In this document: positions 1,676 through 17,373 of the stretch, piece by piece
Position numbering within the stretch: position 1 is the stretch's first letter
Layout of the letters: each line of letters starts with the position of its first letter
Origin: Mesorhizobium sp. ZC-5
Lineage (GTDB): Bacteria > Pseudomonadota > Alphaproteobacteria > Rhizobiales > Rhizobiaceae
Direction of reading: 5' to 3'
Length of the DNA: 64,000 nucleotides
Assembly: GCF_025753855.1 (NCBI RefSeq)
Contig: NZ_JAOWPT010000005.1
Location: 248,001 to 312,000 of the forward strand
Program-made: the position numbers and the translations under genes
Notes under the pieces: model-generated
Database searches by the model: none
Seen by the model: only the letters and a program-made list of their open reading frames with translations
What the model was told of the DNA's origin: nothing

Positions 1676-1815
1676 CCCTACCCATTCCCCGCCCCGGGGA
1701 GTTTCGCCACGCGCGAAATCTGCGGGGTCAGCAACAGACTATCGCACACCCGCGAGCCTGCCTAGACCGTCTTATTTAGCAAGCACGAAAATGAAGTCGG
1801 CGTGCTCTATCCGCA

Positions 1816-2772
1816 CTATTTGGCGGAACAGAGGCCGTTCTGTAGAACGTCGGAGCAGTTCGGCGATCGCCTGAAATCATCGTAGTAAAGGGTCCAGTCG
1901 GTCGTATGCGCTGCCCGGTATGGGCCGAACTTGAAGTACTGGTTCTTGCCTAAGCCTGGATCGGCATGTCCGATGTGACCCTTGACCGTCACGACCGGTT
2001 TGCCGTTTGCGAAGAGTTCGATAAGGCCTGATCCGTCCGGACCAGGTTTCGTGAAGATCGCAAAATCGATCCATCCGGTATTCGGGGCAGGCAGCTTGTT
2101 GCCATGGTCGGTGACGGTGATTGCATCCGTGCAGGCATCGAAAAGGCTGCCATCGTCAGGTGTCCAGTTGCCGTCGGTGGCGACCAGCGCGCGCATCTGG
2201 TTGGTTTCCGGCCTGTACCAGACCGGCGTTCCGGCGGTGCATGGTGCGGCAGCGGTGCTGACAGATGTGGCCGTCGGCGCGACATAGTTGGTTTCGACCG
2301 TGGCAAACAGTTTTCCCTGCCTCAGCCGCAGCGCGAGGAACGGACTGAAATCGCCATCGGCACCCGGGTCGATTTCCCGCTTCCATTGAGCGATGAGATA
2401 ACGGTGGTCGTCAGTGGGTATCGGATCGGCGAACTTGACCGCGAAACCGTACCAGACGCCTTGATCGTAGGGGACGCGCAAGGCCGTTTTTTCCCAGATT
2501 TCAGCGCGTTCGCTGCAGGACGTGCTGGACGTGGCGCAGAGCGGCTTCACGCTGAGCTTGAGGGCACCGCCGCCGTTCCGCACGACATCCTTCTGGAATT
2601 CGACGATGCCGGCACTTTGCTCGAAATTTTCCTTGTAGTAGAGGCCACCGCTTTCGGAAAAACCGGGGCCGTCGAACCCGTCGACGAGGACTTGCGAGTC
2701 TCCGGCTCCCGCCGGACCACATAGACAGACCGCCGCAGCCAAACCGGCCATTCGGATGCTCTCGCTTCTCAT
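1816..2772 (-). CDS. Secreted polysaccharide lyase (heparin-lyase-I-like family)
   Basis: Predicted exported enzyme that cleaves an acidic polysaccharide. The 318 residues start with a signal peptide (hydrophobic run about residues 8-22, likely cut after AGA). A beta-rich domain of the Polysacc_lyase type follows, with WYGFAVKF, YLIAQWKRE and the late motif YFKFGPYR. Six cysteines in the mature part fit an extracytoplasmic protein. The start codon overlaps the end of the cyclase gene by 4 bp, so the two are probably translated together. I infer that it trims or releases the polymer made by the glycosyltransferases nearby. The substrate is unknown. Confidence 0.8.
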   Translation of the reverse strand: MRSESIRMAGLAAAVCLCGPAGAGDSQVLVDGFDGPGFSESGGLYYKENFEQSAGIVEFQKDVVRNGGGALKLSVKPLCATSSTSCSERAEIWEKTALRVPYDQGVWYGFAVKFADPIPTDDHRYLIAQWKREIDPGADGDFSPFLALRLRQGKLFATVETNYVAPTATSVSTAAAPCTAGTPVWYRPETNQMRALVATDGNWTPDDGSLFDACTDAITVTDHGNKLPAPNTGWIDFAIFTKPGPDGSGLIELFANGKPVVTVKGHIGHADPGLGKNQYFKFGPYRAAHTTDWTLYYDDFRRSPNCSDVLQNGLCSAK

Positions 2773-4112
2773 TGGATTTTCTTTGGGTTTTCGGTGGGCA
2801 GTTGAATTCTCCTGGTGTCGCGATGCAGAAGGATCACCTGTTCCGCATCTGACATCCGATCGTAGCTGCCTTCCAGGCTGCCGTCATCGTCGATCGTTCC
2901 CACATCCGAGGCATCCGGCGACAGAATCGTCAGTTTTTGCCGGACCCCGGCGAGTTTTTCCTTGCCCAGGGTCACCCATCCGCCGCCGCAATAGGCCGCG
3001 AAATCCTTGCTTGCGATGAGCCGTTGCGGGTATTTCTTGGTCAGAAGCTGGAGCCGCTGGACCTCGTTCACAGCCGATCCGAAGGCCGAAAATGTCAGGC
3101 GGTCGGTCAGCCCCACATTGCCGAACATCACGTTGCCGACGTGCAGGCCGATACCGAAGCCGATCTCACCGAGGCCTTTCTGACGTCTCTGGCTGTTGAG
3201 TTCAGACATCCTGGCCGTTGCCTTGAAGGCTGCGCTCAACGCAGCCTGGCATGCTATCTGGGACGGCACCTGGTGCCTTTCGCAGGGATAGACCGCCAGG
3301 AAGCCGTCACCGAGAAAGCTCAGAATCTGCCCTCCCGCCCTGTTGAACGGCGCGGCGATCGCGTCGAAGAACTGGTTCAGCGTGTCGATATAGGCTTCAC
3401 GGCCAGACGTCTCCGCCAGCTTGGTCGAGCCGCGCATGTCTGCCATCACCAGTGCGGCCCGGATCGTATCGCCTTCGCCGCGTTTGATCTGGCCGTTGAG
3501 CACGCGTTTACCCGCGTCGCCGCCGAGATAGGTCGTCAGCATATTGTCCGCCAGCTTGTTCAGCACCGCCATTTTCGTGGCCACGGCGAGGTTGCTCTGG
3601 ACCCGCAGCAGCGCCTCGATCATGTCGTCGGTGAACCCTGACGGGTTGTCGGTCGACCACGATCCGATCATGCCTTGGTTCGAATTGTCGCCGAAAGACT
3701 GCACGAAAGCCATGTAGTCGGTGACGCCCAGAAGTTTGAGGTCGTCGAAAATCGGAAACTCCGACGGTCTCGATGGATCGATCCGGCGGCGGATATATTC
3801 CAGATTGTTGGAAAGCAGATGGTAGTATGGGCTGTTCAGGAAGCGGTCCGACGAAAGCCCTGCTTTCTTGCGAAAACCCTCGACCTCCATGCCGCGCCCA
3901 CGCTCCCAGGTGAAGCCAAGAGCATCATAGAGGGGATGCAGCATCGAGAAGCTCAGATGCACGCGTACGAGCGGCAAACCAGCGGCCGCAAGCCGCTCGC
4001 AGAAGCCGCGAACCATGACCTCCAGATTGTCACCGGAGAGCGAAGACTTCATCAGCCAGTCACCGACCCTGTCCATGAGAATGGTGGAAACTTCGGCTTG
4101 CACTGCTTTCAT
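2769..4112 (-). CDS. Class III adenylate/guanylate cyclase with uncharacterised N-terminal domain
   Basis: Makes a cyclic nucleotide from ATP or GTP. The 447 residues have an uncharacterised N-terminal half (about 1-185) typical of rhizobial stand-alone cyclases, then a class III catalytic domain (about 215-400). Both metal aspartates are visible: D225 in ADMRGST and D269 in FLGDGFLAVY. The transition-state pair N349 and R353 lies in SAVNEVQRL. No membrane segment is obvious, so it is probably cytoplasmic. It overlaps the FkbM gene upstream and the lyase gene downstream by 4 bp each. Base specificity cannot be read safely because the usual D-x-T pocket motif is altered (FSAFG). Confidence 0.88.
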   Translation of the reverse strand: MKAVQAEVSTILMDRVGDWLMKSSLSGDNLEVMVRGFCERLAAAGLPLVRVHLSFSMLHPLYDALGFTWERGRGMEVEGFRKKAGLSSDRFLNSPYYHLLSNNLEYIRRRIDPSRPSEFPIFDDLKLLGVTDYMAFVQSFGDNSNQGMIGSWSTDNPSGFTDDMIEALLRVQSNLAVATKMAVLNKLADNMLTTYLGGDAGKRVLNGQIKRGEGDTIRAALVMADMRGSTKLAETSGREAYIDTLNQFFDAIAAPFNRAGGQILSFLGDGFLAVYPCERHQVPSQIACQAALSAAFKATARMSELNSQRRQKGLGEIGFGIGLHVGNVMFGNVGLTDRLTFSAFGSAVNEVQRLQLLTKKYPQRLIASKDFAAYCGGGWVTLGKEKLAGVRQKLTILSPDASDVGTIDDDGSLEGSYDRMSDAEQVILLHRDTRRIQLPTENPKKIQ

Positions 4113-4897: not shown

Positions 4898-5116
4898 GGC
4901 AGGTTTCCCGGCCGTCGTGCTCCGCCGGACTTCAGCGGTCGCCGCGTCAGGCAACGACGCTTCCGGGAGGCGATGATGAAGTGACTGAGGGGCAATCAGA
5001 TAACTGCTTTTCTTGCCGACAGGACGCGGCGCACCGAAAAGGCGAATCCCATCGGCAATACGCACGTCCTTATGGCAGATATGGCTTAATCCGATTTCCT
5101 GCAAGAAGGGGTAGGG

Positions 5117-6277
5117 TTAAGCGGCCTTCTTGGCCTTCATGCTGGCGGCGGCCATGGCATAACCACCGGCAGCGCCATCGACAAAGTGAACGTGGTCGCG
5201 CTGCAACGGGGACGCCACGATGCAGGTCATCAAAGCTGAATCTTGCCGGTGAATGCCATATACGCAGACACCTGCCGCTTCGGCGGCCTTCAAACGGTTT
5301 TCGATCTTTTCGAAGATCATGGCGTCAACGTCTATGGTCATCTTCAGACCATCGTCGAATTTCCGGAAATCCGAGTTCTGAGCAACATCGTTTTTATAGC
5401 GTTTCGGGTCGAAACTGCCGATCGTCCAGCCAAGCTTGTCGGAGATCGTGGTCAAAGCCATCTGTCCCAGGATGAAAGCTTTCGGCCATAGCCGGCGTCC
5501 TTTCGGAGCGATGGCGGCCGCTTCGATGGCGAGCCCCTTGGGTGGGAAGCTGTAACCGGGGCCGTCGAGCGGCACCGGATGTCCTGCGCGCTCCTGCTCG
5601 CCGGCGATAGCGACGATATCCGCGACCAGATGCCGGAAGGCCCGCTGGCTGTCGGAACCACTGGGAGCCGCTATGATCGATACGATCTCGCCATTTTGGG
5701 CTTCGATCGGATTCCAGCGGCATGAAAGACCGGTGAGGTCCGGCCTGGTTCCGGTCGGTGCCGGGTCGATACGATAGCGTCCAGCCTTCATCTCGGCTTC
5801 GGCCCAGCTCGAGCCGCCGCCGGCGAACATGGCATAAAAAACCTCGTCGGACGCCTGGAAGCGCGCGACGCGAACGTCCAAGCCTTTTGCTCGAATGTCC
5901 GTCATCGGAACAATCGCCGCCCGCAACGTCAGCCCCAGTTCGTCGGCCACCCACGCCTGGACGGCGGCCAGAGCGTCTCGCGTCTTGTTCTGCATGGCGG
6001 TCGGGAAAGCCACCATGGCGCCGTCTCCACCGAAAACAAAAGGCAGGTCGCGGCGGCCGAGTGTGTTGAGGAGGCAGGAGATGACACTTGCCCCGGCCAT
6101 GTTCACCGATTTGTAGCCACCGGCTTCGATCGCCTGGGTGGACCCAACGATGTCCGCCGTTGCAAGTGCCCAATCGTCTGGCAGTGGCCGATAGTTCTCT
6201 ACATCCGCAACGCCCTCGAACTTCGCGAAGATCGGCAAGGTATCGAAAAACGCGTCGGGAGCGGCAATCTTGTCCAT
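5117..6277 (-). CDS. DUF3095 family protein, class III cyclase-like
   Basis: 386 residues of the DUF3095 family, whose function is not established. The N-terminal half resembles a class III nucleotide cyclase. D42 in ADIVGST and D85 in VFGGDGAMVAF sit where cyclases hold their two metal-binding aspartates, with the spacing reduced. The family-typical YRPLPDDW and FAGGGSSWAEAEMKAG are present. I chose the ATG at 6277 (MDKIAAPD). The frame stays open to 6394, but that would run into the divergent glycosyltransferase gene. It lies just upstream of the FkbM-cyclase-lyase unit on the same strand. Whether it makes or senses a nucleotide is unknown. Confidence 0.75.
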   Translation of the reverse strand: MDKIAAPDAFFDTLPIFAKFEGVADVENYRPLPDDWALATADIVGSTQAIEAGGYKSVNMAGASVISCLLNTLGRRDLPFVFGGDGAMVAFPTAMQNKTRDALAAVQAWVADELGLTLRAAIVPMTDIRAKGLDVRVARFQASDEVFYAMFAGGGSSWAEAEMKAGRYRIDPAPTGTRPDLTGLSCRWNPIEAQNGEIVSIIAAPSGSDSQRAFRHLVADIVAIAGEQERAGHPVPLDGPGYSFPPKGLAIEAAAIAPKGRRLWPKAFILGQMALTTISDKLGWTIGSFDPKRYKNDVAQNSDFRKFDDGLKMTIDVDAMIFEKIENRLKAAEAAGVCVYGIHRQDSALMTCIVASPLQRDHVHFVDGAAGGYAMAAASMKAKKAA

Positions 6278-6369
6278 CCCAGTACAATTAACACATTTCC
6301 CCTCGGCGTTGGTCAGTTGAATATGGCCGAAATTGACTTGTGCGAATTTTCGGTGGAAGGCTCGCCGCG

Positions 6370-7449
6370 ATGCGAATTGCCTTCTATGCGCCAATGAAAT
6401 CGCCCAATCATCCCGTTCCGTCGGGAGATCGCCAGATGGCGCGGCTGCTGATCAAAGCGTTGGAGCGCGCTGGTAACGAAGTGTCCGTGGTTTCGGAACT
6501 GCGCAGCTTCGCAACGAAGTCCGGGCCCGAACACTACGCGGCCATCGCGCATCAGGCAGACATGGAGATCTCCAGGCTGACAGCTCGCTGGGAGAAGGGC
6601 GGAAAGCCGGATCTCTGGCTGAGCTACCATCCCTACTACAAGGCGCCCGACTTCATTGGCCCAAGCATGGCCAAGGTTCTTGCCATCCCCTATGTGACGG
6701 TGGAGGCATCCTATTCCGCCCGCCGCAATGTGGATGCATGGTCTGACACCCAGGTTTTGGTCGCGGATGCGGTGAAAAGCGCCTCTCTCAACATCTGCTT
6801 CACGCGCCGGGACCGTGACGGGCTGGCGTCAATCGCACCGGATGCGCGTTTCGCAATGCTGTCGCCCTTCATCGACACAACGGCTTTCATTGCCGGGCCG
6901 AACTCACCGAGGCTTGTCGTGGTGGCGATGATGCGCCCGGGCGACAAGCTCGCCAGCTACGGAATGCTGGCGCGGGCGCTCGAGCGGCTGGACGACAGGT
7001 CATGGACCCTCTCGGTCGTCGGCGACGGGCCTTGCCGTGCCGAGGCGATAGAGGAGTTCGCCGGCTTGCCAGCCGAACGCATTGAATGGCTGGGCAAGAA
7101 GGAGCCCGACGAAATTCCAGGCTTCCTTGCCGGCGGCGGCATCTACGTCTGGCCAGGTTGCGGCGAAGCCTACGGTCTTGCATACCTTGAAGCCCAAGCG
7201 GCCGGACTGCCCGTCGTCGCGCAGGACACCGCCGGTGTGCCGGAAGTCGTACGCGACGGCGAGACCGGTATTCTGACAGCCCCCGGCAATATCGACGCCT
7301 ATGCATCGGCTGTTGCGCGACTGCTGACCGACCGCGGTGAAAGGCAGGCGATGGGCGATGCGGCGCGGCGCTTCGTTCTGGAAGAAAGGTCGCTTGACGC
7401 GGCTGCATCGCGCCTAGACGGAATCCTTCCGATGGCGCCGCCACAATGA
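6370..7449 (+). CDS. Glycosyltransferase family 4 protein
   Basis: Predicted sugar transferase (GT-B fold, GT4) in the cytoplasm, adding a residue to a surface polysaccharide. The 359 residues begin MRIAFYAPMKSPNHPVPSGD, with an N-terminal acceptor domain and the C-terminal donor-binding part VWPGCGEAYGLAYLEAQAAG, which includes the family E-x7-E region. The start at 6370 has GGAAGG nine bases upstream; an in-frame TTG at 6340 is less likely. The deacetylase gene overlaps its end by 4 bp. It is divergent from the DUF3095 gene. Confidence 0.87.
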   Translation: MRIAFYAPMKSPNHPVPSGDRQMARLLIKALERAGNEVSVVSELRSFATKSGPEHYAAIAHQADMEISRLTARWEKGGKPDLWLSYHPYYKAPDFIGPSMAKVLAIPYVTVEASYSARRNVDAWSDTQVLVADAVKSASLNICFTRRDRDGLASIAPDARFAMLSPFIDTTAFIAGPNSPRLVVVAMMRPGDKLASYGMLARALERLDDRSWTLSVVGDGPCRAEAIEEFAGLPAERIEWLGKKEPDEIPGFLAGGGIYVWPGCGEAYGLAYLEAQAAGLPVVAQDTAGVPEVVRDGETGILTAPGNIDAYASAVARLLTDRGERQAMGDAARRFVLEERSLDAAASRLDGILPMAPPQ

Positions 7450-8210
7450 ACAGAGATGCGGCGTGGCTGCCGCTGACTATGGAACTTGCACGCTGGGAAG
7501 ATGCCGGCCGCACAGCGGAGTTCTGGCTACGCGATGACGACGCGGTCGAACCCACCGAGCCGCTCGACCGCCTGCTCGGGCTGACCGAAAAGTTTGGCGT
7601 TCCGGCCACACTTGCCGTGATTCCAGCATTCACCGGAAAAGCTCTCGCAATCAGGCTCGCCGGCGCATCGCAGGTGACGGTTGCCGTTCACGGATGGTCG
7701 CATGAGAACCATGCGCCTGACGAAGAGAAGAAGCAGGAACTCGGCCGGCATCGTGAACGTGGGATGGTGCGCGATGATCTGGGGCGAGGGCTGTTCCACA
7801 TCACCAATCTCCACGGTCCGCGGATGGTCCCGCTGCTGGTGCCTCCATGGAACAGAATCCACCCGGACTTGCTGCCCGATCTCATGCCGCTCGGCTTTAC
7901 GGCGCTGTCCGTCTTCGGCCCGGCAAAGCCCGCCGCCATCCGCACGATCAACAGCAATGTCGACCTGATGGATTGGCACGGCACACGCGGTTGTCGCGAC
8001 CATGGTTTGATTGCTCGTGACATTGCAGCGCAACTCGCTCAGGCCTTTGAGGGTGGCGATGCGGTTGGCATTCTCACGCACCACCTTGTGCATGACGAAG
8101 CGGCGTGGGTGTTTCTGGAGGATCTTTTCGAACTCACCGCGGGTCACCGTGCCTGCGGATGGCGTTCCATTCGCGAATTGATCGCCACTGGAGAGGAAGC
8201 TGCGCGCTGA
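7446..8210 (+). CDS. Polysaccharide deacetylase family protein
   Basis: Predicted metal-dependent N- or O-deacetylase of the NodB/carbohydrate-esterase-4-like superfamily. The 254 residues carry the aspartate cluster D30-D31-D32 in WLRDDDAVE and the histidines H82/H86/H89 in VHGWSHENH, which fit the family metal site. No signal peptide is visible, so it may act on a cytoplasmic lipid-linked or monosaccharide intermediate. It is translationally coupled (4 bp overlap) to the GT4 gene before it. Its stop abuts the end of the convergent MBL gene. Confidence 0.82.
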   Translation: MNRDAAWLPLTMELARWEDAGRTAEFWLRDDDAVEPTEPLDRLLGLTEKFGVPATLAVIPAFTGKALAIRLAGASQVTVAVHGWSHENHAPDEEKKQELGRHRERGMVRDDLGRGLFHITNLHGPRMVPLLVPPWNRIHPDLLPDLMPLGFTALSVFGPAKPAAIRTINSNVDLMDWHGTRGCRDHGLIARDIAAQLAQAFEGGDAVGILTHHLVHDEAAWVFLEDLFELTAGHRACGWRSIRELIATGEEAAR

Positions 8211-9119
8211 TCAGCGCTGTTTCACGGTTTGACGCACGAAGTCCAGGACTTGGCCGTCACGCGCCGCAAAAGCGCCGGAAAACGCCTGGGCCGCCTCCTG
8301 CTCGATCGCCTCGATCTGGGCATCCGTGCGCGCCGGATCGTGGTGAAACAGCGCTAGGCGCTTTGCTCCGGCCGCCTTGCAAAGCTTGACGCCTTGTTGC
8401 CAGGTCGAATGGCCGTAACCGCGATAGCGCTGCATTTCCTCTTCGACGTAGGTGCAGTCGTAGACGACGAGTTCGGCGCCTTCGATCAGGCCCAGGATTG
8501 CCGGATCGAGCTTGCCGGGCTCGTGTTCCGTATCCGTGATTACCGCGATTGCCCGCCCACCCCATTCGACACGATAGCCGATGCAGCCCCCGGGATGATT
8601 GAGGCTGGCTGTCCGTATCGCAATGCCTTCGCGTGGGCGAAGGATGTCGCCGGAAACAAAATCCTTGCAGTCGAGGTTCGCCTTGCAGATTTCCAGCCGC
8701 ACGGGAAACCATGGGGGGCGCATGAATTCGCTCAGCATCTCCCATGTCGTCATGCGGCCGGCCAGGTGCCCGGACCAAAGCCTGACCCGGATCTTCGGAT
8801 CGTAGAATGGAAAGAAGAATGGCAACCCAACAATATGATCGTAGTGGCAGTGGGTGAAGAATATGTCGAAATCGTTGATGGCAGCAGCCATCAACGCCTC
8901 GCCGGCAGGGCGTATCCCCGAGCCGGCGTCGAAAAAGAGCGTATGCCTCCCGCATTGCACTTCGACGCATGCGGTGTTGCCGCCATAACGGATGAATTGA
9001 GGACCCGAGACGGGCAGACTGCCGCGTACTCCCCAAAAACGGACCCGGAATGCCTCTTCGTCCATCATGCCTCTTCGCGGCGTCCCCATCGGGCCACTAT
9101 CGTAGCCATCCTGCCGCAT
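8211..9119 (-). CDS. MBL-fold metallo-hydrolase (FWGVRGS-type)
   Basis: Predicted di-metal hydrolase. The family opening FWGVRGSLPVSGP and YGGNTACVEV is followed by the metal motif H90-C-H92-Y-D94-H95. Later ligand candidates are H175 (SLNHPGG), D196 (ITDTEH) and H259. Proteins of this branch include cyclic-phosphate phosphodiesterase-like enzymes and often occur with cyclic-nucleotide-binding domains. The next gene on this strand encodes such a domain, so cleavage of a cyclic nucleotide is possible but unproven. The start is uncertain: ATGs at 9119 and at 9068/9065 are all open, and the latter fit the conserved N-terminus better. Confidence 0.8.
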   Translation of the reverse strand: MRQDGYDSGPMGTPRRGMMDEEAFRVRFWGVRGSLPVSGPQFIRYGGNTACVEVQCGRHTLFFDAGSGIRPAGEALMAAAINDFDIFFTHCHYDHIVGLPFFFPFYDPKIRVRLWSGHLAGRMTTWEMLSEFMRPPWFPVRLEICKANLDCKDFVSGDILRPREGIAIRTASLNHPGGCIGYRVEWGGRAIAVITDTEHEPGKLDPAILGLIEGAELVVYDCTYVEEEMQRYRGYGHSTWQQGVKLCKAAGAKRLALFHHDPARTDAQIEAIEQEAAQAFSGAFAARDGQVLDFVRQTVKQR

Positions 9120-9189
9120 TTAGACGAGACACGTATTTGGCGTGTTTTTCAACCGCCTCGGGATTGGCATATCGGCTAACCGGCTCCGG

Positions 9190-9645
9190 CTAGTGTTTAT
9201 TGTTCCGGGCATCGGCGAGTTCGGCCGTTGTGTGGCTGAGCCTGTCGGCCAGAACGCGGACGATCTCGATGGTCATTTCAGGAAACTCCTTCAGGAGCCT
9301 CAGGAAATGATCCTTGCGTATCCGCAGCGCCTCGAGCGGCTCGGCTGCCCTTACCGTTGCGGTACGCGATACATCGCAAAGAATGGCGATTTCGCCGACG
9401 ATCGAATTGGGCTCAAGTTCCGCAACCTTGATCTGGCCGGTATCGGAGTCCACCAGGATGTCCGCTGTTCCCGACAGGATGACATAGGCCGCGTCACCCT
9501 CATCGCCCTGATTGAAGAGGATTTGGCCTTCGCTGTAGCTGACGCGGTCCGACGTGAAAGCGAGAAGCTTGAGTTTCGCCGGCTCGACGCCCGAGAACAG
9601 CGGAACCCGCCGGAGCATTCCCACTTCATCCTTGAGAAGCATCAT
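9190..9645 (-). CDS. Stand-alone cyclic-nucleotide-binding domain protein
   Basis: 151 residues that are essentially one cNMP-binding beta-roll (about 10-125) with a short helical tail and no DNA-binding domain, so not a Crp/Fnr activator. The phosphate-binding cassette is clear: G84-E85 in IVGEIAIL and R94-T95-A96 in VSRTATVRA, where the arginine normally holds the cyclic phosphate. It lies 36 bp downstream of the degenerate ABC gene on the same strand and upstream of the MBL gene. I infer a cNMP-sensing regulatory subunit for the exporter or another product of the locus. Confidence 0.85.
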   Translation of the reverse strand: MMLLKDEVGMLRRVPLFSGVEPAKLKLLAFTSDRVSYSEGQILFNQGDEGDAAYVILSGTADILVDSDTGQIKVAELEPNSIVGEIAILCDVSRTATVRAAEPLEALRIRKDHFLRLLKEFPEMTIEIVRVLADRLSHTTAELADARNNKH

Positions 9646-9681
9646 CGCAAACCTCGTCCCCTGGTCTTATTTAAGGGATCA

Positions 9682-12396
9682 CTATGACAGTAGTCCCTTA
9701 AAGATACCGTTTCTTGCCAAAAGTGTCTCGTGGGTTCCGTCTTCTACCAATTCGCCGGCATCGAAGACGATAACCCGATCGAACAGCTTCGCCATCGCCG
9801 GGTTGGTCAGCACCCAGATGATCGCAGGTGCGCGGCCGTCACGTCGTGCTTCCTCCAGCACGTTGCGCAGGATCTGATCCTGCAAACGCTGGTCCAGCGC
9901 GGAAAGCGGGCGGTTCAGGATAAGGAAGTCCGCGCGTTTGAGCAGCGCGCGCGCCACGTCGAGTTTCTGGCGCTGCGCGCCGGTGAGGCGCCTGCCGCCG
10001 ACCCCGACGTTGAAGCCCAGCCCGACATCGAGGACATCGTCATAGAGACCGAGTTCATCCAGAATCTCGTAGACGATCGCCCGGATGCGTTCAGGCCCTT
10101 CCGGATGGCTGTTGGCTATCCTGCCGAACAGCACATTGTCCATGACATTTGCCGCCACCGTATAGCGCATGGGATCGTAGGGTTCGATCGCGCCTTGCAG
10201 GTCTTCCGGCAGGTTCTCGTAGAAACTTTCGCGCGCAGCGATGATCTTCGCCATCAGATCGTCGCTCAGCAGACCGAAACGGTGGCGGGGCTCGATATAG
10301 GCGAAACTCAAGGTGATGATTTGCGCACGGTCGGCTTCCGCAACACTTTCATACGGCTTGCCCTTCAGCTTTTGCAGAAGCGACTGATAGGTCGGAATCT
10401 CCTCGGCCGTCATGAAGGCAAGCTGCTGGAAGAAAGGGTGATCCGGCGGCAGATCGCTGAACAGTTCGATTGCCTGCTCGGCAATCTCAAGGCCCATGCC
10501 GTAGAGGACTTGATCCAGCCCGTCAGCCTTGAGTACCGACAGGAAGTACGGGTTGGCCGCGAGTGCCTTTCCAGCCAGCGCCGAGCCTGTCGCCGCTCCG
10601 AACAAGAGGTTCTCGCCGATCGTCGCTTCGCGGTTGTAGGCGCCGGGTTCGAACGGGACGACTAGGTCCGTCAGCTTTTCCTTTTCCAGTCGCACCCGCA
10701 ACGCATTGCGCAATTCCACGATGCGTTCGACCAGTTGCTGGTGGCGCTGCAGGTCGGCGGTCGTGCGCAGGCCAAGATCCAGAATATCGCGGGAGAGAAC
10801 CACGGCGTCGAGCATATGGCGGATGACGCCGAAAAGGTCGTTCGGACCTGTGGCACCCGCCGCGCCGTAATCCACCCAGTCGCTGTTGAGATCAAAATCC
10901 GGATTGCCGGATCGTTTTGCCTCATCGAGATCCCAACTGTGCTTTTTCGCCTTCTCGCCTTCATATGTCACGCTGGTCAGCGGAACATGTTTCAACCCGT
11001 ACAATAAATTGTCGCGCAGGGTTCCTTGCGAAAGGTAGGCGTCGGACGAGGCATAGGACATCCGGCGTCCGGTAATCGATTCCGGCAATTCGAGCAGGTC
11101 GGCGTCACCGGCGACCACTTTTCCACTTTCGGGCCAGTTCAGCCGTGCAAATGCCTCCGCCAGCGCTTCGCCGCCGCCATTGGCCGTGGTGATGATCGCG
11201 ACCGTCTCGCCAGGTTTGATCTGGAAGGAAACACGTTCAAGTAGCAGCGCGCCGCTATCGTCGATGAGCGACAGGTTGACGGCTCCTAGCGCGCCGCTGA
11301 GCGGGCCGACCGGATCTACCGTCATCGTCTGAATTTTGGGATCTACCAGGCGGTCGATGGCGAACTGCTCATAGACTTGCGCATATTTGACCTGGACATC
11401 CTGGCGCGCCTGGTCCCAATCGATCAATTCCTTCATCGGACCTGGCAAATCCTTGTAGGCGGCGATCACCGCGACGAGCTGTCCAACGTCGAGGCGGCCG
11501 CGCAGCGCAAGATAACCACCGATCAGGTAGAACAGGAAGGGCGTCACCTGAGCGAGGAAATTATTGATGAATTTTACGAGGAATTTCCATTGGTAAAGGT
11601 CGTAGCGAATCTTGAAAATACGACCGAGCCTGGAGGCGATGTCGGCGCGCTCGTAGTTGGATGTGTCATGGATATGGATCGTGCCGATACCGTCGACGAT
11701 TTCACCCACCCGGCCCGACAGTTCGCGCGCAGTCAGCTGTCTCTCACGACCGAGCCGGATCAGCCGCTTGCGCATTTTTGGAATAAGGACGAGTTGGATT
11801 CCCACGATCACGGCAGCGATCAAGCCCAGCCAGTAGTTCTGGATGATGATGAAGACGAGCGCCGTCAGCGCCTGGCCGCCAAGCAACGCGGGCTGGACGA
11901 AGGCATCGCCGATGAAGCCGCCCAGCGGCTCCACCTCGTCCTTCACCATCGTGGCGACTTCCGCGGATTTCACCCGTTTGAACTGGTAGGGCGGAAAGCG
12001 CAGGACCCGGTCGACAAGTTCGAAACGGATGCGCCGTAACATCCGTTCGCCGAGACGGCCCTTGTAGGTATTGATGTAGAATTTGAAGAGCCCGTTGATG
12101 ACGACGAGCAGGAGGAAAACCATGCTCAAGGCGAAGAGTGTCTCTTCGCGGTCGAGTTGGAAGCCGGAGAAAAGCTGGATATTTCCGACAACCGGCAGAT
12201 TGAAACTGATATCCATGAACGTCTGAGTGGCGCCCGGCGTTTCGAAGCCGTCGCCCTGGATCGGTCCGTTCACGATCAGCTTGGGCAGATCGAAGGACAT
12301 GAAATACGGGATCATCGACAGCGCGACGATCGTCAGAATCCAGAGCTGCTGTCTCCAGGTGTGCGTCCAGATATAGCGAACGAGGCTTTCTATCAT
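9682..12396 (-). CDS. ABC-exporter-like membrane protein with degenerate, enlarged nucleotide-binding domain
   Basis: Type IV ABC exporter architecture: a six-helix transmembrane domain (about residues 15-330) then an NBD-like region, 904 residues in total against about 600 for a normal half-exporter. The NBD has lost its chemistry. The Walker A position reads TTANGGGEAL (403-412) with no GKS/T. The signature is LTGAQ (804-808). Walker B is FLILNRPLSALD (824-835) with Asn-Arg in place of Asp-Glu. The switch His region is WVLTNPAMAK. About 300 extra residues separate Walker A from the signature and include three copies of a D/E-N-hydrophobic-L-x-G motif. The frame is intact. The ATG at 12396 is chosen; a TTG at 12417 overlaps the upstream gene. 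Confidence 0.82.
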   Translation of the reverse strand: MIESLVRYIWTHTWRQQLWILTIVALSMIPYFMSFDLPKLIVNGPIQGDGFETPGATQTFMDISFNLPVVGNIQLFSGFQLDREETLFALSMVFLLLVVINGLFKFYINTYKGRLGERMLRRIRFELVDRVLRFPPYQFKRVKSAEVATMVKDEVEPLGGFIGDAFVQPALLGGQALTALVFIIIQNYWLGLIAAVIVGIQLVLIPKMRKRLIRLGRERQLTARELSGRVGEIVDGIGTIHIHDTSNYERADIASRLGRIFKIRYDLYQWKFLVKFINNFLAQVTPFLFYLIGGYLALRGRLDVGQLVAVIAAYKDLPGPMKELIDWDQARQDVQVKYAQVYEQFAIDRLVDPKIQTMTVDPVGPLSGALGAVNLSLIDDSGALLLERVSFQIKPGETVAIITTANGGGEALAEAFARLNWPESGKVVAGDADLLELPESITGRRMSYASSDAYLSQGTLRDNLLYGLKHVPLTSVTYEGEKAKKHSWDLDEAKRSGNPDFDLNSDWVDYGAAGATGPNDLFGVIRHMLDAVVLSRDILDLGLRTTADLQRHQQLVERIVELRNALRVRLEKEKLTDLVVPFEPGAYNREATIGENLLFGAATGSALAGKALAANPYFLSVLKADGLDQVLYGMGLEIAEQAIELFSDLPPDHPFFQQLAFMTAEEIPTYQSLLQKLKGKPYESVAEADRAQIITLSFAYIEPRHRFGLLSDDLMAKIIAARESFYENLPEDLQGAIEPYDPMRYTVAANVMDNVLFGRIANSHPEGPERIRAIVYEILDELGLYDDVLDVGLGFNVGVGGRRLTGAQRQKLDVARALLKRADFLILNRPLSALDQRLQDQILRNVLEEARRDGRAPAIIWVLTNPAMAKLFDRVIVFDAGELVEDGTHETLLARNGIFKGLLS

Positions 12397-12413: not shown

Positions 12414-12998
12414 TCAACCTTTGGAATGCAGGACGAAGAAACGCCTTTTCGCATAAGGCGAACCGGCAATGGCGGCGTCGTCAAGAACAAGCTCGAAACT
12501 GCAATGTACAGAAACAGTTGGTCGGCTGACAATCTCCGGCACCTGCGAGGCAGCGCGTTCGAGATCGGGCGCGTAATCGATAACGATCGTTTTGGCGTTA
12601 TCGATCAGCGAAAAGAGCAACTGGCCCAGTGGCTCGCGCCTGCCGAATGGTTTCAGCGAATAACCAAGCAGAACCAGCGCGTAGCTTCGCGGGGGGTAGT
12701 CATAGCTGATTTCCTGGAATTTTCGCGGAATGTGACGCACGCGGCAGCGATGACCGTTGAGTTCGTCCGCCTCGTAGGCGGTTGTCTTCGGATCGACCGA
12801 CAGGACCGATTGAGGCGCGTGCGTGAGAAAGCCGGTGATCGGGGTCAGGTGTCCGCCGATTTCGACGATATGCGCACAGTCGCGCACGAAATGGGCGGCG
12901 ATCACTTGACGTATGGGGGCTGCGGCGCCCGACAGGTGCGCCAGGCCTTCTCCAGCACTCGCCGAGGGCGAGGCAGCTTCGAAAGTCTTCATGTCCAT
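12414..12998 (-). CDS. SAM-dependent methyltransferase-like protein
   Basis: About 194 residues from the ATG at 12998 (MDMKTFEAA). The pattern IVEIGGHLTPITGF followed by LSVDPKTTAYE resembles SAM-binding motif I and the acidic loop of class I methyltransferases, and YALVLLGYSL fits motif IV. The glycine-rich loop is not canonical, so activity is unproven. It is the first gene before the degenerate ABC gene; the longest frame of that gene overlaps it by 4 bp. It is divergent from another methyltransferase-like gene starting at 13048, with only about 50 bp for both promoters. Confidence 0.6.
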   Translation of the reverse strand: MDMKTFEAASPSASAGEGLAHLSGAAAPIRQVIAAHFVRDCAHIVEIGGHLTPITGFLTHAPQSVLSVDPKTTAYEADELNGHRCRVRHIPRKFQEISYDYPPRSYALVLLGYSLKPFGRREPLGQLLFSLIDNAKTIVIDYAPDLERAASQVPEIVSRPTVSVHCSFELVLDDAAIAGSPYAKRRFFVLHSKG

Positions 12999-13047
12999 CG
13001 GGTCAGATTGCGTTGTGTTGCCAAGATTCTCAACATACAACACGCCC

Positions 13048-13722
13048 ATGATGGACGCCACCCAGCCGGAATACCCGGGCGCCGATTGGCGCGAGCACGC
13101 TTTCGACCTCACGCGCGGAATAGCCGCCTACACATCCAACCCGCTGATCGCAGGCCTTGCCCGTATCATCGCGAAGCATCCTCAAGCGGATATCGCCAAT
13201 GCCTTCAACCACAAGCAGGTCGCCTGCAAGATGTGGGCGCGCGACAAGCTGCTCGAAAGCAGCGGTGCGCGTTTTGGACGAATCTGGATCCTCGGCGGGT
13301 GGTATGGCGTTCTCGCCGCGATGCTGTTCGACGACACGCGGCTCGATATCGATGCGATCGACAGCTTCGATATAGACCCGTCCGTTGCAGCCGTTGCCCG
13401 AACGCTGAATCGACCGGCGGGAGAGCGCTTTCAGGCGGTGACGGCTGACATGTATGCACTGGACTACGCGGCCGTCAGGCCCGACCTGGTGGTCAACACC
13501 AGCTGCGAGCACATCGCGAACGTTCGCGGCTGGCTCGATCTTCTGCCGCGCGGCACGCAGGTGCTGCTGCAATCGAATGATTATTTCAGTGAACCGACAC
13601 ACATCAATTGCGTGGCTTCGGTGGGGGCCTTCGAGGAGATGGCCGGGCTGAGCGAGTTGCGGTTCTCCGGCGAACTGCCGATGAAGAAATATACCCGGTT
13701 CATGCTGATCGGGACGGTCTGA
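13048..13722 (+). CDS. Class I SAM-dependent methyltransferase-like protein
   Basis: 224 residues from MMDATQPEYPGADW. The Rossmann-type pattern RIWILGGWYGVLAAML, then DSFDIDPSVAAVA and DLVVNTSCEHI, matches motifs I, II and IV of SAM methyltransferases. A longer frame to 12913 would run into the divergent gene, so the ATG at 13048 is preferred even though its ribosome site is weak. Its last 23 bp overlap the end of the convergent glycosyltransferase gene. The substrate is unknown; the setting suggests sugar or polymer modification. Confidence 0.68.
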   Translation: MMDATQPEYPGADWREHAFDLTRGIAAYTSNPLIAGLARIIAKHPQADIANAFNHKQVACKMWARDKLLESSGARFGRIWILGGWYGVLAAMLFDDTRLDIDAIDSFDIDPSVAAVARTLNRPAGERFQAVTADMYALDYAAVRPDLVVNTSCEHIANVRGWLDLLPRGTQVLLQSNDYFSEPTHINCVASVGAFEEMAGLSELRFSGELPMKKYTRFMLIGTV

Positions 13723-14845
13723 GTTCCAGCTTCCGGCGGAGCAACTGGGCCGATTTCCTTGCCCCATCGAGGTCCAGTGCATGCCGGCCGGGATTGGGGG
13801 CCGCGAACGCGCGTTCAATGGCCGTCGATAGCCCAGTCGGCGTCAGGGCGTCCTCAGTTAAAATCGTAGCCAGCCCCAGAGCTTCGAGCCGCTCGGCGCG
13901 CGCCGTCTGCTCGGTTTCCCCGCCGGCCGAAAAGGGAACGAGCAGCGAGCGGCAGCCGGCGCGCAGCACGTCGCATACCGTATTGTAGCCGGCCTGCGAA
14001 ACCGATAGGCGAACACCCGTCAGCAAACTGGCGAAGTCCTCGCGGAACCTGAAGACGGATAGGCCCTTCGGTGCTCCGGCAACGGCTGCCCGGAACTCCG
14101 GTTCCGGCAAATTGGGACCGGTGATGAGGCACCACTTCAGGTCGCTATTTTTTGCCGCGGCTATCGTCGAAGCGGCGAGGGCGCTGCCAGCCGCACCGCC
14201 CCCTGCGGAGACAAGAATGTCAAAGCGCTCGCCGGTCAGTTGCGGCGGCGGGGCGGCGACAAGGCCCGTGTAAGCGACCTTGGCTTCGAAGGTACGGGCC
14301 AGCGGAAACGTCTGTTCGATCGTGGCGAATGCCGGATCGCCATGAACCATCACCAGATCGAAATAACGTTTGATGAGGTCGACGGTTTCCTCGTTGCGCC
14401 CGACCTTGGTGCGTTCCTGAAGGATATCGCGCGCAGAGGTCACTACCAACGGTTTGGGAGTTCGGTTCGCAATTGTTTCCAGCAGCGGAAGAAGTTCGAA
14501 CCGCATCTGGCGGCGTCCGAATGGGAAAGCCTCCACAATGACGATATCGGGCCTGAAGTCCTCGAATGCCTGCAGCAAGATTTGCTGGCGTTGTTTCTTG
14601 AAGGTGTCGTCGACAGGTTGTCCTTGCAAATCCGCAAGGCCCGAAAATCCGTGATCGCCAGCCGTGATCGGCGGCAGTTTCAGGGTTTTCACGCCCGACC
14701 CCGGAAAACCGGCCACCGGCGTTCCGCCGATCACCAAGAGAACGTCAAAGCCGTCCTCGACAAGAGCAGCCGCGATACGGCTCGCCCGCGCCAGATGACC
14801 GATACCGAGCAGATGCTGGACATAGAAGAAGACGCGCGGCTGCAT
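13700..14845 (-). CDS. MurG-like glycosyltransferase (GT28-type fold)
   Basis: Predicted GT-B glycosyltransferase of 381 residues starting MQPRVFFYVQHLLGIGHLAR. The N-terminal G-x-GH-x-x-R loop is typical of MurG-like enzymes. The donor-binding C-terminal half has ILVSAGGGAAGS and SVSQAGYNTVCDVLRAG. The ATG overlaps the TGA of the upstream GT4 gene by one base, so translation is coupled. It is a paralogue of the product of 16096-17373. It is likely to act in polymer assembly at the inner face of the cytoplasmic membrane. Confidence 0.8.
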   Translation of the reverse strand: MQPRVFFYVQHLLGIGHLARASRIAAALVEDGFDVLLVIGGTPVAGFPGSGVKTLKLPPITAGDHGFSGLADLQGQPVDDTFKKQRQQILLQAFEDFRPDIVIVEAFPFGRRQMRFELLPLLETIANRTPKPLVVTSARDILQERTKVGRNEETVDLIKRYFDLVMVHGDPAFATIEQTFPLARTFEAKVAYTGLVAAPPPQLTGERFDILVSAGGGAAGSALAASTIAAAKNSDLKWCLITGPNLPEPEFRAAVAGAPKGLSVFRFREDFASLLTGVRLSVSQAGYNTVCDVLRAGCRSLLVPFSAGGETEQTARAERLEALGLATILTEDALTPTGLSTAIERAFAAPNPGRHALDLDGARKSAQLLRRKLELRPSRSA

Positions 14846-16092
14846 CACGAAACCGCCCGCCACTCCTGCTCGAACAGAGCCTTCAGTTGGCCGATGCTGG
14901 AATTGTGATCGAAATGGCCGCGTACGCGTTGCTCGGCGGCATCGCCGAGGCGCTTTCGCAGCGCCGGGTCGCGCATCGCGCGTTCAAGTGCTTGTGCCAA
15001 GGCCTGCGGGTTCTCGGGAGCGACAACCATCCCATTCTCTTCGTCCGTCAACAATTCCGGCACGCCGGAGACGTCGGTCGATATGCAGGCCAGTTTCTGG
15101 CTCGCAGCTTCCACCAGCACATTCGGCAGGCCGTCGCGATCGCCGTCGGTCGCAATCCGGCACGCCAGCGCGAAAATGTCCGACTGCCGGTAATGCTCCA
15201 GCACGTCCTCCTGCGCCAGTGCGCCTTTCCAGGAGATGCGCGAGGCGATCCCGAGACCGTCTGCCAGCGCCTTGAGTCGAGCGAGTTGCTCGCCGCCCCC
15301 GATATGTTCGAAGCGCCAATTAAGATCCGGGGGCAAAAGGGCGAGGGCCTTCAACAGTAGATCGTAGCCCTTCTTTTCCACAGCCCGCCCGACACTTAGC
15401 ACGCGCACCGGGTCGGCTTCGGTCGAGCCGTCGCGCGGCGCCCGCGCGCTGTCGAAACTGCCGAAACGAGCGAGGTCGAGGCCGTGATAGCTCAGCTGCA
15501 CTCGGGACGTGTCCTTCGCCAGGCTTTTCAGGTGTTCGTAGCCGGTCCGCGTGCAGGTCACCATCCAGCGCACCGACGAAAGCTTGTCGGCCAGATCCCA
15601 GTCCTGCGACGTCCAGATGTCCTTGGCGTGTGCCGAACAGGTCCAGGGAAGGCGGCGAAGCAGGCTGGCATAACGGGTCACCGAGGCGGGCGTATGCGCA
15701 AAATGCGCATGAAGCCATTCACCGTTCTCGGGCCACTCCGCAGCGAGCACCAAAGCCTGGCCGAAGCGGCGGATTCGGTTGCGTGTCGGATCGCGCCGAA
15801 GATCCGCCGCAAAGCTCCGCAGCGCTGGCCAGAAGCTGCTCCGCGGCAGAACGGCAAACAACGAGCGGGCAACGCGAAAAGGCTCGTCATGCAAATATTC
15901 AGGGAGGTAATGCACGTTCGCCTTGATCTCGTCGTGCACGGGATGGCGCTTACCGTCGGTCGGCCTTCTCAGCGCAACGAGCACCAGCTCCATGCCCGCC
16001 CGCTCCAGCCCCAGCAGTTCCTGCGCGATGAAGGTCTCCGACAGACGCGGATAACCCTTCAGCACAACGACGATCTTGCGGCGCTCGGGCAA
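14845..16092 (-). CDS. Glycosyltransferase family 4 protein (colanic-acid type)
   Basis: 415-residue GT-B enzyme. The opening KIVVVLKGYPRLSETFIAQE is typical of exopolysaccharide GT4 transferases, LHAHFAH follows in the acceptor domain, and the donor part has VLSVGRAVEKKGYDLLL and DGDRDGLPNVLVEAASQ with the conserved E-x7-E region. It sits between two MurG-like genes on the same strand, three bases after one and overlapping the other by one base: a compact three-gene transferase operon. Confidence 0.88.
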   Translation of the reverse strand: MPERRKIVVVLKGYPRLSETFIAQELLGLERAGMELVLVALRRPTDGKRHPVHDEIKANVHYLPEYLHDEPFRVARSLFAVLPRSSFWPALRSFAADLRRDPTRNRIRRFGQALVLAAEWPENGEWLHAHFAHTPASVTRYASLLRRLPWTCSAHAKDIWTSQDWDLADKLSSVRWMVTCTRTGYEHLKSLAKDTSRVQLSYHGLDLARFGSFDSARAPRDGSTEADPVRVLSVGRAVEKKGYDLLLKALALLPPDLNWRFEHIGGGEQLARLKALADGLGIASRISWKGALAQEDVLEHYRQSDIFALACRIATDGDRDGLPNVLVEAASQKLACISTDVSGVPELLTDEENGMVVAPENPQALAQALERAMRDPALRKRLGDAAEQRVRGHFDHNSSIGQLKALFEQEWRAVS

Positions 16093-16095
16093 GCT

Positions 16096-17373
16096 TCAGC
16101 TCTTGCCGTCAACAACGGAGAGATGGGGATGCGCGCGCTGATCCAGCCAGTCGCCGACGATTTCGGAAATGTTTGCCAGACCTTCCAGCCGCAGCTCCGG
16201 ATTGCTCTGCGAAGGGCGGGGCCGGTCCGGGAGAGCCTTCAGGGCCTCGGCAAAGCGCGGCGCGTCTTCCGCCTCCTCCGGCAGCAGCATCTCGACAAGC
16301 CCGAGTTCGGCGGCGCGGCGGGCCCGGATCAGTTGTTCCTCGCGCGGCTTTACGCGCGGCACGATCAGCGCCGGCTTGTCGAATGAGAGTATCTCGCAAT
16401 AGGTGTTGTAGCCGCCCATCGCCACGACCGCCTTAGCGCCGGCGATCAGGTCTTCCATCCGGTTATCGAATTCGATGATCTCGATCTGGGGTATCTGCGC
16501 GCCCTTCTTGATCAGCTTGTTGCGCTTCTTTGCCGGCATATAGGGCCCAAGTACGACCAGCGCCTTGTGCTGCAATTCCGGATCCTGCTGATAGGCGTGG
16601 ATCACGTTGTGGATCAGGTCGGCGCCATCGCCGCCGCCGCCGGTTGTCACCAGTATGTAGTCGCCTTGCGGGCGGTGCCCTGGCGTCTCGTCGTGCGGAA
16701 GGCTTCGCTGCAGGAAACCCACGAACTTCATCTTCGCGCGGACGGATGCCGGTACATCGAGCCCGGTCAGCGGATCATAGAATTCGGGCGGTCCGTAGGC
16801 CCATATCATGTCGTAGAAGGAGCCCATCTTGCGCATCACGTCGCTCCTTTTCCACTCTTCCTCGAGCAGATGGGGCGCATCCATGACTTCGCGCAGGCCG
16901 AGGACCAGCGTCGTTCCGCGGGTCTTCAAGTAGGAGAGGGTTTCCTCGGCTTCTCCCCGCAAACCGAGCGGCTCCTTGTCGACGATGAAGATGTCCGGCT
17001 GGAAGGTTTCCGCGGTGTGGCGGATGATCGATTGGCGCATCTTCAAAGTCTCGTGCACATCGATATGCCGTTCGAGCGACGTGTATTCACCGTTGCGCAG
17101 TTTGATGACGCTGGGAATTTTGACGAAGTCGACGCGCGCCCGGTAGTCGAACGCACCGGCGATCGTCGCGCCGGAAATGATGAGGATATTGAGCCCGCGA
17201 TAATCCTCGACCAGCGAGTGGGCGATGGTCCGGCAGCGCCGCAAATGACCTAGCCCGAACGTATCGTGGCTGTACATCAGGATTCGGGCATGTTCGAAGC
17301 GCCGCATCATGGCCAGATCAACCTCAGTTTCAGCGCCGGGCCTGAGCCTGGAATCGGGCTGGAAGCCATACAT
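16096..17373 (-). CDS. MurG-like glycosyltransferase (GT28-type fold)
   Basis: 425-residue GT-B protein. The N-terminal motif is RILMYSHDTFGLGHLRRCR; the C-terminal half has ILVTTGGGGDGADLI and AVVAMGGYNTYCEILSF, the donor-binding parts of this family. It is related in layout to the 13700-14845 product and is probably the first gene of the three-transferase operon. The real start may be the MM pair near 17310, which has GAGG upstream, rather than the ATG at 17373. The sugar specificity is unknown. Confidence 0.82.
   Translation of the reverse strand: MYGFQPDSRLRPGAETEVDLAMMRRFEHARILMYSHDTFGLGHLRRCRTIAHSLVEDYRGLNILIISGATIAGAFDYRARVDFVKIPSVIKLRNGEYTSLERHIDVHETLKMRQSIIRHTAETFQPDIFIVDKEPLGLRGEAEETLSYLKTRGTTLVLGLREVMDAPHLLEEEWKRSDVMRKMGSFYDMIWAYGPPEFYDPLTGLDVPASVRAKMKFVGFLQRSLPHDETPGHRPQGDYILVTTGGGGDGADLIHNVIHAYQQDPELQHKALVVLGPYMPAKKRNKLIKKGAQIPQIEIIEFDNRMEDLIAGAKAVVAMGGYNTYCEILSFDKPALIVPRVKPREEQLIRARRAAELGLVEMLLPEEAEDAPRFAEALKALPDRPRPSQSNPELRLEGLANISEIVGDWLDQRAHPHLSVVDGKS

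Follow-up and report, generated by a model that had tools for sequence, protein, structure and literature searches.

The 64,000-nucleotide stretch of the Mesorhizobium sp. ZC-5 genome analyzed here (contig NZ_JAOWPT010000005.1, positions 248,001 to 312,000), referred to below as the window, encodes a 904-aa protein of the ATP-binding cassette (ABC) exporter type whose nucleotide-binding domain (NBD) has lost its catalytic residues. The next gene downstream codes for a small cyclic-nucleotide-binding (CNB) protein. The interpretation favored here, with moderate confidence, is that the ABC protein is a conserved pseudo-ATPase of exporter origin that is controlled by its CNB partner and serves a surface-glycan system. 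From the comparisons described below, we infer that such a protein would not hydrolyze ATP, would form a homodimer in physical contact with the CNB protein, would be controlled by the ligand of the latter, and would have a role in polysaccharide biology.

Degeneration of the ATPase domain

The gene for this protein (Table 1) is an uninterrupted frame that runs on the minus strand from an ATG codon at position 12396 to a stop codon at position 9682. The list of open reading frames (ORFs) also permits a TTG start at position 12417; the N termini of the homologs agree with the ATG. An initial annotation of this stretch, made from its sequence, described an unbroken frame with a normal membrane domain, and both descriptions hold. 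The sequence of the membrane domain is still exporter-like and matches the Pfam family ABC_membrane (PF00664) over residues 84 to 312 with 74.2 bits (cutoff, 28). This is the most conserved part of the family, with 81 columns that are at least 85% conserved among 102 aligned rows. The match of the NBD to the Pfam family ABC_tran (PF00005; 35.1 bits, cutoff 25) is split over two stretches. The best curated model is the MsbA equivalog TIGR02203, which scores 182.2 bits, below its cutoff of 602. A match to the PADLOC model mads_3 (residues 713 to 880, E = 3e-6) was read as general ABC likeness. In plasmid records, members of this family are labeled “ABC transporter ATP-binding protein” or “ABC transporter transmembrane domain-containing protein,” or the region is left unannotated.

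The motif positions were set by alignment to the MsbA and P-glycoprotein chains in the PDB and to five canonical exporters of the same genome; L192, L195, and L197, which have no usable single exporter frame, were not included in the canonical set. These alignments confirmed that the Walker A Lys, the Walker B Asp-Glu pair, and the switch His are gone and that the signature is altered, with Thr805 at the position of its Ser. They also confirmed the retention of the C-terminal landmarks, including the D-loop Asp (Asp835), the signature Gln, and the GTHETLL ending. The protein is indeed about 300 residues longer than usual, with 904 aa versus 598 to 607 aa in the PDB-matched MsbA chains and 578 aa in Sav1866.

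Of 444 candidate stretches from a scan of the species genomes of the Genome Taxonomy Database (GTDB), 415 proved to be relatives. We retained the best 80, which come from Mesorhizobium, other rhizobia, and their kin, as the rhizobial set (49 of them make up alignment A1). These homologs are 67 to 88% identical to the window protein and match it over at least residues 4 to 902, with frames open throughout; together with the window protein, they form a rhizobial clade of 81 sequences. The distant set consists of 95 loci (L082 to L176) from 92 genomes of the class, whose best matches are 30 to 50% identical to the window protein and, with the exception of L093, cover it from residue 12 or earlier to residue 830 or later. 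The motif census was made without L177 (aligned from residue 365 only), L178 to L180, which consist of a membrane domain alone, and L081, which is the window protein. Four of the long matches listed for the class were left out: G210, with an in-frame TAG (682-aa frame), and G139, G178, and G124, which were in pieces. Among the matches listed for 289 genomes sampled from the class, long relatives are found in many families. When the extra stretch alone served as the query, matches were obtained in 25 of 299 genomes of the phylum, and all 25 belong to the class of the window. Relatives are also encoded on 262 plasmid records, including pSymB of Sinorhizobium meliloti 2011 and pRL11 of Rhizobium johnstonii 3841.

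None of the 81 sequences of the rhizobial clade has the canonical Lys or Ser/Thr of Walker A, the Asp or Glu of Walker B, or the switch His. The replacements are nearly uniform: Ala or Gly for the Lys in all 81 sequences, Glu or Asp for the Ser/Thr in 80 (Asn in the other one), Asn for the Walker B Asp in all 81, and Arg for the catalytic Glu in 80 (Gln in one), with Pro830 present in all 81; the signature Ser position is occupied by Thr in 79 sequences and by Ser in 2. The degenerate sites are not a chance finding: none of the 80 homologs, over matches spanning residues 4 to 902, is canonical at the five positions. Judging by these residues, the members of the rhizobial clade almost certainly do not hydrolyze ATP.

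The distant members are more varied. Their Walker A Lys position holds Lys in 60 and Arg in 31 of the 95 sequences (91 with either), the Ser/Thr position has Ser or Thr in 7 and Glu or Asp in 72, and the Walker B Asp, catalytic Glu, and switch His are found in 16, 50, and 32, respectively. All six canonical residues, including the signature Ser, occur in a single sequence, L156, which is ∼38% identical to the window protein (gene at positions 6980 to 9658 of its locus). The initial annotation had expected homologs to share both the substitutions and the length, and a canonical ortholog was to count against it. The substitutions proved to be nearly fixed in the rhizobial clade and not in the distant members, and the extra length extends to the whole family; a canonical ortholog turned up once among the 95 distant members, amid degenerate relatives, and never among the 80 rhizobial homologs.

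Where the Walker A Ser/Thr is replaced by an acid, the Walker B Asp tends to be missing as well (65 of 72 sequences, versus 14 of the other 23; Fisher P = 0.0025, with shared ancestry ignored). The pattern looks as though a carboxylate had shifted from one motif to the other. Such an association, along with the Lys or Arg kept in most distant members, would suit a protein that binds ATP without hydrolyzing it, i.e., a nucleotide sensor similar to SUR or CFTR, with the acidic residue now in Walker A instead of Walker B. However, the rhizobial clade has Ala or Gly in place of the Lys throughout and, with one exception, Arg in place of the Glu, and the P value takes no account of ancestry; we consider such a sensor unlikely.

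On a tree of 95 distant and 7 rhizobial rows, built with the motif columns removed (a quick construction whose outgroup branches are long and whose root is unsure), the minimum numbers of changes were 17 for the Lys, 6 for the Ser/Thr, 12 for the Asp, 15 for the Glu, and 17 for the His. The loss of these residues is graded and spread over lineages, contrary to the initial claim that all of them were lost at once. The Ser/Thr and the Walker B Asp are missing from most lineages, and the change from Lys to Ala or Gly is a step specific to rhizobia. L156 adjoins a degenerate sister, L126, and is nested among degenerate relatives, so it may have escaped losses that occurred many times in parallel or may have regained its ATPase site.

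The catalytically degenerate NBD is under about the same constraint as the membrane domain. The median ratios of nonsynonymous to synonymous substitution rates (dN/dS) are 0.147 for the membrane domain, 0.140 for the start of the NBD, 0.169 for the insert, and 0.164 for the end of the NBD (Nei-Gojobori counts on 300 pairs sampled from 1021 with dS of 0.15 to 0.9); the pair of the window protein and L043, with silent sites near saturation, carries little information. Ordinary decay, with the gene as a pseudogene in progress, would explain why the window copy is left without any catalytic residue. It has next to no likelihood in view of the open frames of all 80 close homologs, the conserved substitutes in Walker B, and dN/dS of ∼0.15 (0.14 to 0.17 in every domain), and the proposal that this is something other than decay is thus upheld.

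The CNB partner and the repeated module

The strongest clue to the function of the ABC protein is its CNB partner, to which the initial annotation drew no connection and which matches the Pfam family PF00027 with 78.4 bits. A gene for such a protein lies directly downstream on the same strand in 160 of the 175 loci examined and is fused to the ABC gene in 9; the other 6 have none. These numbers come from tblastn, by which the CNB gene was initially scored as adjacent at 159 loci, fused at 10, and absent at 6, until the “fusion” in L093 was recognized as a frame artifact. They replace a count based on ORF starts (156 adjacent, 9 fused, and 10 without), because in GC-rich DNA, ORFs are extended too far at their starts. 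The fused ABC-CNB proteins comprise 1003 to 1103 aa and carry the CNB domain at the C terminus; Pfam recognized it in all three counted fusions that were scanned (L155, L171, and L176).

Among 90 aligned CNB sequences, the phosphate-binding residues are present in 90 (Gly), 84 (Glu), and 90 (Arg). With these residues intact, the nucleotide site of the partner is kept while that of the ABC protein decays. The mean number of ATPase residues retained, out of six, is 3.33 at the loci without a CNB gene (6 loci), 2.25 at those with an adjacent one (79 loci), and 1.60 at the fused ones (10 loci, including the unfused L093), in a comparison of few and related loci. The ABC protein is very probably coupled functionally to the CNB protein, which probably binds a cyclic nucleotide.

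In normal exporters, the Q-loop/helical module is the part of the NBD that touches the membrane domain. The additional ∼300 residues, which are present across the whole family and not confined to members with a dead NBD, contain further copies of this module, so that the NBD carries it three times, versus once in a normal exporter. This assignment follows from repeats in profile comparisons and from the limits of the PDB matches, the first of which stops at the Q-loop of copy 1, while the second starts between residues 748 and 797, in or just past copy 3. In the profile comparisons, copies 2 and 3 matched at 98% (E = 2e-13 to 9e-13) and copy 1 (residues ∼451 to 544, with a long internal spacer) matched copy 2 at 91% (E = 9e-7). 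The match of copy 1 to copy 3 was weaker (56 to 67% over 22 columns; E = 5e-5 to 1e-4), and control comparisons of the repeat segments with two membrane-domain segments gave 0.1 to 0.4%; the E values apply to single comparisons. A further pairing, of the spacer at residues 635 to 735 with the segment of copy 1 (30% over 21 columns), is given no weight. Family-wide, the spacer between copies 2 and 3 has several near-invariant residues, namely, Arg722, Phe646, and Arg704-His705-Arg706. One Asn recurs in copies 1, 2, and 3, being found in 94, 95, and 95 of the 95 distant members, respectively, while the catalytic residues vary.

The search of the class also matched short ORFs (L178, L180, and L200 to L217) that consist of the membrane domain only. 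There are 18 usable NBD-less sequences of 313 to 413 aa from 21 loci, and these keep 13 to 19 of 20 family-typical near-invariant residues, versus 3 to 6 in the five canonical exporters. The partial sequences L179, L216, and L217 (8, 14, and 9 of the 20, respectively) were left out of this range and of the membrane-domain tree. On that tree (again quick, with long branches), 17 of the NBD-less sequences form one group, and L180 stands beside the full-length L166 with a support of 84. An ORF with a canonical NBD was found in 2 of the 21 stretches, both times on the opposite strand. The existence of these relatives favors a membrane domain that may be able to work without ATP hydrolysis, with unlinked NBDs as another possibility. 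Relatives of L180 (48 to 51% identical) are also encoded on two conjugative Roseobacter plasmids (L218, positions 8995 to 10488, and L219, positions 6995 to 8299), in both cases within copper islands, next to genes for TolC-family, copper oxidase, copper-binding, and azurin-like proteins.

Gene neighborhood and the S. meliloti locus

The features of the window are listed in Table 1. Relatives of the neighboring genes were counted at any position within loci of 7.9 to 18.7 kb, 80 rhizobial and 76 distant; several of the neighborhood clusters were probably spurious antisense ORFs, and only those matching known neighbors were used. Glycosyltransferase genes are found near the ABC gene at all 80 rhizobial and 52 distant loci (132 of 156 in all), and at many distant loci, relatives of the second family-28 type enzyme lie directly upstream in divergent orientation. 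Relatives of the deacetylase-like gene are found at 76 rhizobial and 37 distant loci. The metallo-beta-lactamase-fold (MBL) hydrolase (76 rhizobial loci and 1 distant one), the class III cyclase (56 and 3), and the DUF3095 protein (57 and 0) are rhizobial features of the neighborhood.

Table 1. Coordinates of the pseudo-ABC exporter, its parts, and the neighboring genes in the window
Feature	Position	Strand	Basis
Pseudo-ABC exporter, 904 aa	9682..12396	minus	ORF, homologs, Pfam
Membrane domain, residues 1-345	11362..12396	minus	Pfam, family alignment
Former Walker A TTANGGGEAL, residues 403-412; Lys replaced by G409, Ser/Thr by E410	11161..11190	minus	alignment
Repeat copy 1, Q-loop strand and NLLYG, residues 445-468; Gln replaced by Ser	10993..11064	minus	profile comparison
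Repeat copy 1, helical part beyond spacer, residues ~525-545	10762..10824	minus	profile comparison
Repeat copy 2, residues 576-637	10486..10671	minus	profile comparison
Spacer between copies 2 and 3, residues 638-732	10201..10485	minus	family alignment
Repeat copy 3, residues 733-795, continuing into signature	10012..10200	minus	profile comparison, PDB matches
Signature LTGAQ, residues 804-808	9973..9987	minus	alignment
Former Walker B ILNRPL, residues 826-831; Asp replaced by N828, Glu by R829	9904..9921	minus	alignment
Former switch histidine, T864	9805..9807	minus	alignment
CNB protein, 151 aa, next gene downstream; intact GE...R phosphate-binding residues	9190..9645	minus	Pfam, alignment
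MBL-fold hydrolase, 302 aa	8211..9119	minus	Pfam
Polysaccharide-deacetylase-like protein (Pfam score under cutoff)	7446..8210	plus	
Family-4 glycosyltransferase	6340..7449	plus	Pfam
DUF3095 protein	5117..6394	minus	Pfam
Class III adenylate/guanylate cyclase domain protein	2769..4112	minus	Pfam
Family-28 type glycosyltransferase	13700..14863	minus	Pfam
Family-4 type glycosyltransferase	14845..16092	minus	
Second family-28 type glycosyltransferase	16096..17373	minus	Pfam

The class III cyclase is a possible source of the ligand for the CNB protein. A cyclase, a CNB protein, and a membrane protein would also make up an immune effector system similar to Pycsar, and the Pycsar-type CNB models of PADLOC do match the CNB protein (best E = 6e-17). 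These matches may reflect general CNB likeness, the cyclase is practically confined to the rhizobial loci, and glycosyltransferases are the commoner neighbors, so that an immune role appears very remote.

The neighborhood also bears on the possibility that the protein is the degenerate half of a heterodimeric exporter, whose canonical half, encoded elsewhere, hydrolyzes ATP, with the CNB protein acting merely as a regulator. There is ample precedent for exporters in which one site is degenerate (PMC7756269), and the 150 scored NBD matches in the genome include possible partners. However, motif patterns place a canonical, exporter-length ABC ORF with one NBD close to the gene in just 4 of 155 loci, and the constant partner is the CNB protein. 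In TAP, TM287/288, and ABCC1, as in the window protein, a degenerate nucleotide site is maintained by selection, but those exporters pair it with a canonical site and, in the available text of PMC7756269, the degenerate Walker A is described as having Arg in place of Lys. Here, that Lys is replaced by Ala or Gly in the entire rhizobial clade, no linked canonical half was found, and both sites of a homodimer would be dead. We give the heterodimer a small chance.

Two further observations concern the neighborhood. An ORF at positions 12417 to 13112 (232 aa), just upstream of the ABC gene, overlaps a methyltransferase-like ORF on the opposite strand and has relatives at 31 of the 80 rhizobial loci; it has no match in Pfam or NCBIfam and may be spurious. 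The annotations of R. johnstonii and Azospirillum place an ABC importer of the oligopeptide type close to the cluster, and that of a Mesorhizobium plasmid shows its first genes there (L186, positions 1144 to 7114; L189, 12358 to 18499; and L190, 21379 to 24712).

On pSymB of S. meliloti 2011, the ABC gene (841.7 to 844.4 kb) encodes a protein that is 67% identical to that of the window and is followed by a CNB gene (72%). The order of genes is as follows: family-28, family-4, and family-28 glycosyltransferases, a methyltransferase-like gene on the opposite strand, the ABC gene, the CNB gene, and, last, the genes for an FkbM-type methyltransferase and a LacI regulator. In the partially available literature, smb21265 is a glycosyltransferase family protein (PMC10128002) and SM_b21272 is a LacI regulator (PMC11387232). 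Given that eight genes fit the eight tags from smb21265 to smb21272 one for one between these two anchors, the ABC gene should be smb21269 and the CNB gene smb21270, which makes this very probably the same locus as the cluster for the phazolicin-protecting polysaccharide (PPP). According to the available part of PMC10128002, PPP is an uncharacterized surface polysaccharide that protects against phazolicin and requires nine genes located between smb21252 and smb21271. The same source reports that smb21252 and smb21265 mutants are phazolicin sensitive, with the MIC for the latter at 0.18 versus 1.47 µg/mL, i.e., an 8-fold lower resistance. It also states that genes potentially of PPP are cAMP regulated and that the adenylate cyclase gene cyaA was depleted in the same phazolicin screen, with little change in the cyaA mutant alone. 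The phrase “cyclic nucleotide” occurs 0 times in its text, and its available part discusses neither the CNB protein nor the ABC protein with its dead NBD. Expression of 7 of the 9 PPP genes is reported to go up during Myxococcus predation (PMC10315480, seen in part). Because of these PPP papers, a role of the ABC protein in surface polysaccharide, earlier given an even chance, is now considered rather likely.

Two other rhizobial genes were set aside. MsbA2 of S. meliloti (SMb21191) is similarly an exporter-type protein encoded in an operon with glycosyltransferases, according to the available text of PMC3687685; it is a separate locus, at ∼938 kb of pSymB of strain Rm1021, with other neighbors. 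The gene pRL110056, described in the accessible part of PMC11103875 as an O-antigen biosynthesis gene that matters for root colonization, has no established tie to the cluster and was not counted.

Relation to known ABC systems and a proposed mechanism

In searches of the open-access literature by subject and locus tag, we found no account of this family of proteins or of its dead NBD, triplicated module, or pairing with CNB. Its best-scoring curated model and its best PDB relatives (7met and 8gk7) are of the MsbA-type homodimeric exporter, whose membrane domain and NBD landmarks align in the same order. In contrast to MsbA, the window protein has no catalytic residues, is ∼300 aa longer, has the module in three copies, and comes with a CNB partner. 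What is unusual is that the module is triplicated and that a CNB partner has taken the place of an ATP site.

SUR1 and CFTR are ABC proteins as well, the first working as a channel regulator and the second as a channel (PMC4699857 and PMC5626490, each available in part). In both, however, the NBDs respond to ATP or Mg-nucleotides, and neither is known to have a comparable triplicated module.

In HetC of Nostoc, too, an ABC exporter carries a CNB domain, which it needs for its function (available text of PMC10986499). However, the CNB domain of HetC is N-terminal, as is its peptidase domain, whereas in the family described here the CNB is a separate gene product or C-terminal. The ATPase glutamate that the window protein has lost is essential in HetC, and the HetC CNB domain was found to bind ppGpp in vitro (same source). 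For these reasons, neither the nature of the CNB ligand nor independence from ATP should be assumed.

The favored interpretation, a CNB-controlled pseudo-ATPase, would have the following mechanism. The protein would be derived from a homodimeric ABC exporter, and its NBD would have been turned into a non-hydrolytic platform for dimerization and regulation, enlarged by two extra Q-loop/helical modules. The CNB protein, adjacent or fused, would work the switch at least in part, with a cyclic nucleotide or another CNB ligand setting the state of the membrane domain. The resulting dimeric membrane switch might act as a gate, a flippase regulator, or a scaffold for a surface polysaccharide, which in S. 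meliloti would probably be PPP. A more specific version, which we regard as a long shot, is a cyclic-nucleotide-operated gate that has given up the ATP power stroke, in which the CNB module, separate or fused, opens and closes the exporter-type membrane domain for a polysaccharide or its lipid-linked precursor and the triplicated module relays the signal from the CNB to the membrane helices. The NBD-less relatives, for instance those of the Roseobacter copper islands, would then represent the end point, a membrane domain that functions entirely without an NBD.

Several observations weigh against this interpretation. The Lys, Ser/Thr, Asp, and Glu are all retained in two distant members, L156 and L176, and the wider family, with the Lys in 60 and the catalytic Glu in 50 of 95 sequences, may still bind or hydrolyze ATP. 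The CNB gene is missing from 6 of the 175 loci, and CNB domains can take ligands other than cyclic nucleotides, if HetC is a guide. No glycosyltransferase match was obtained at 24 of the 76 distant loci. In S. meliloti, the tag smb21269 was counted rather than read from a record, and the place of this gene among the nine PPP genes is not established. The pSymB targets of the cAMP receptor Clr reach smb21248 in the study that PMC10128002 cites for cAMP, and none of the smb2125x to smb2127x genes is named among them in the available text of that study (PMC5498481).

ABC transporters are defined by ATP hydrolysis, and this alphaproteobacterial family, which includes proteins of model symbionts, would show how a transporter can become a regulated non-ATPase. 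The natural series from a canonical member (L156) through dead ones (rhizobia) to those without an NBD makes the roles of this domain beyond the burning of ATP testable. In S. meliloti, it points to a missing component of transport or control, and to a cyclic-nucleotide input, for PPP, a shield against a peptide antibiotic.

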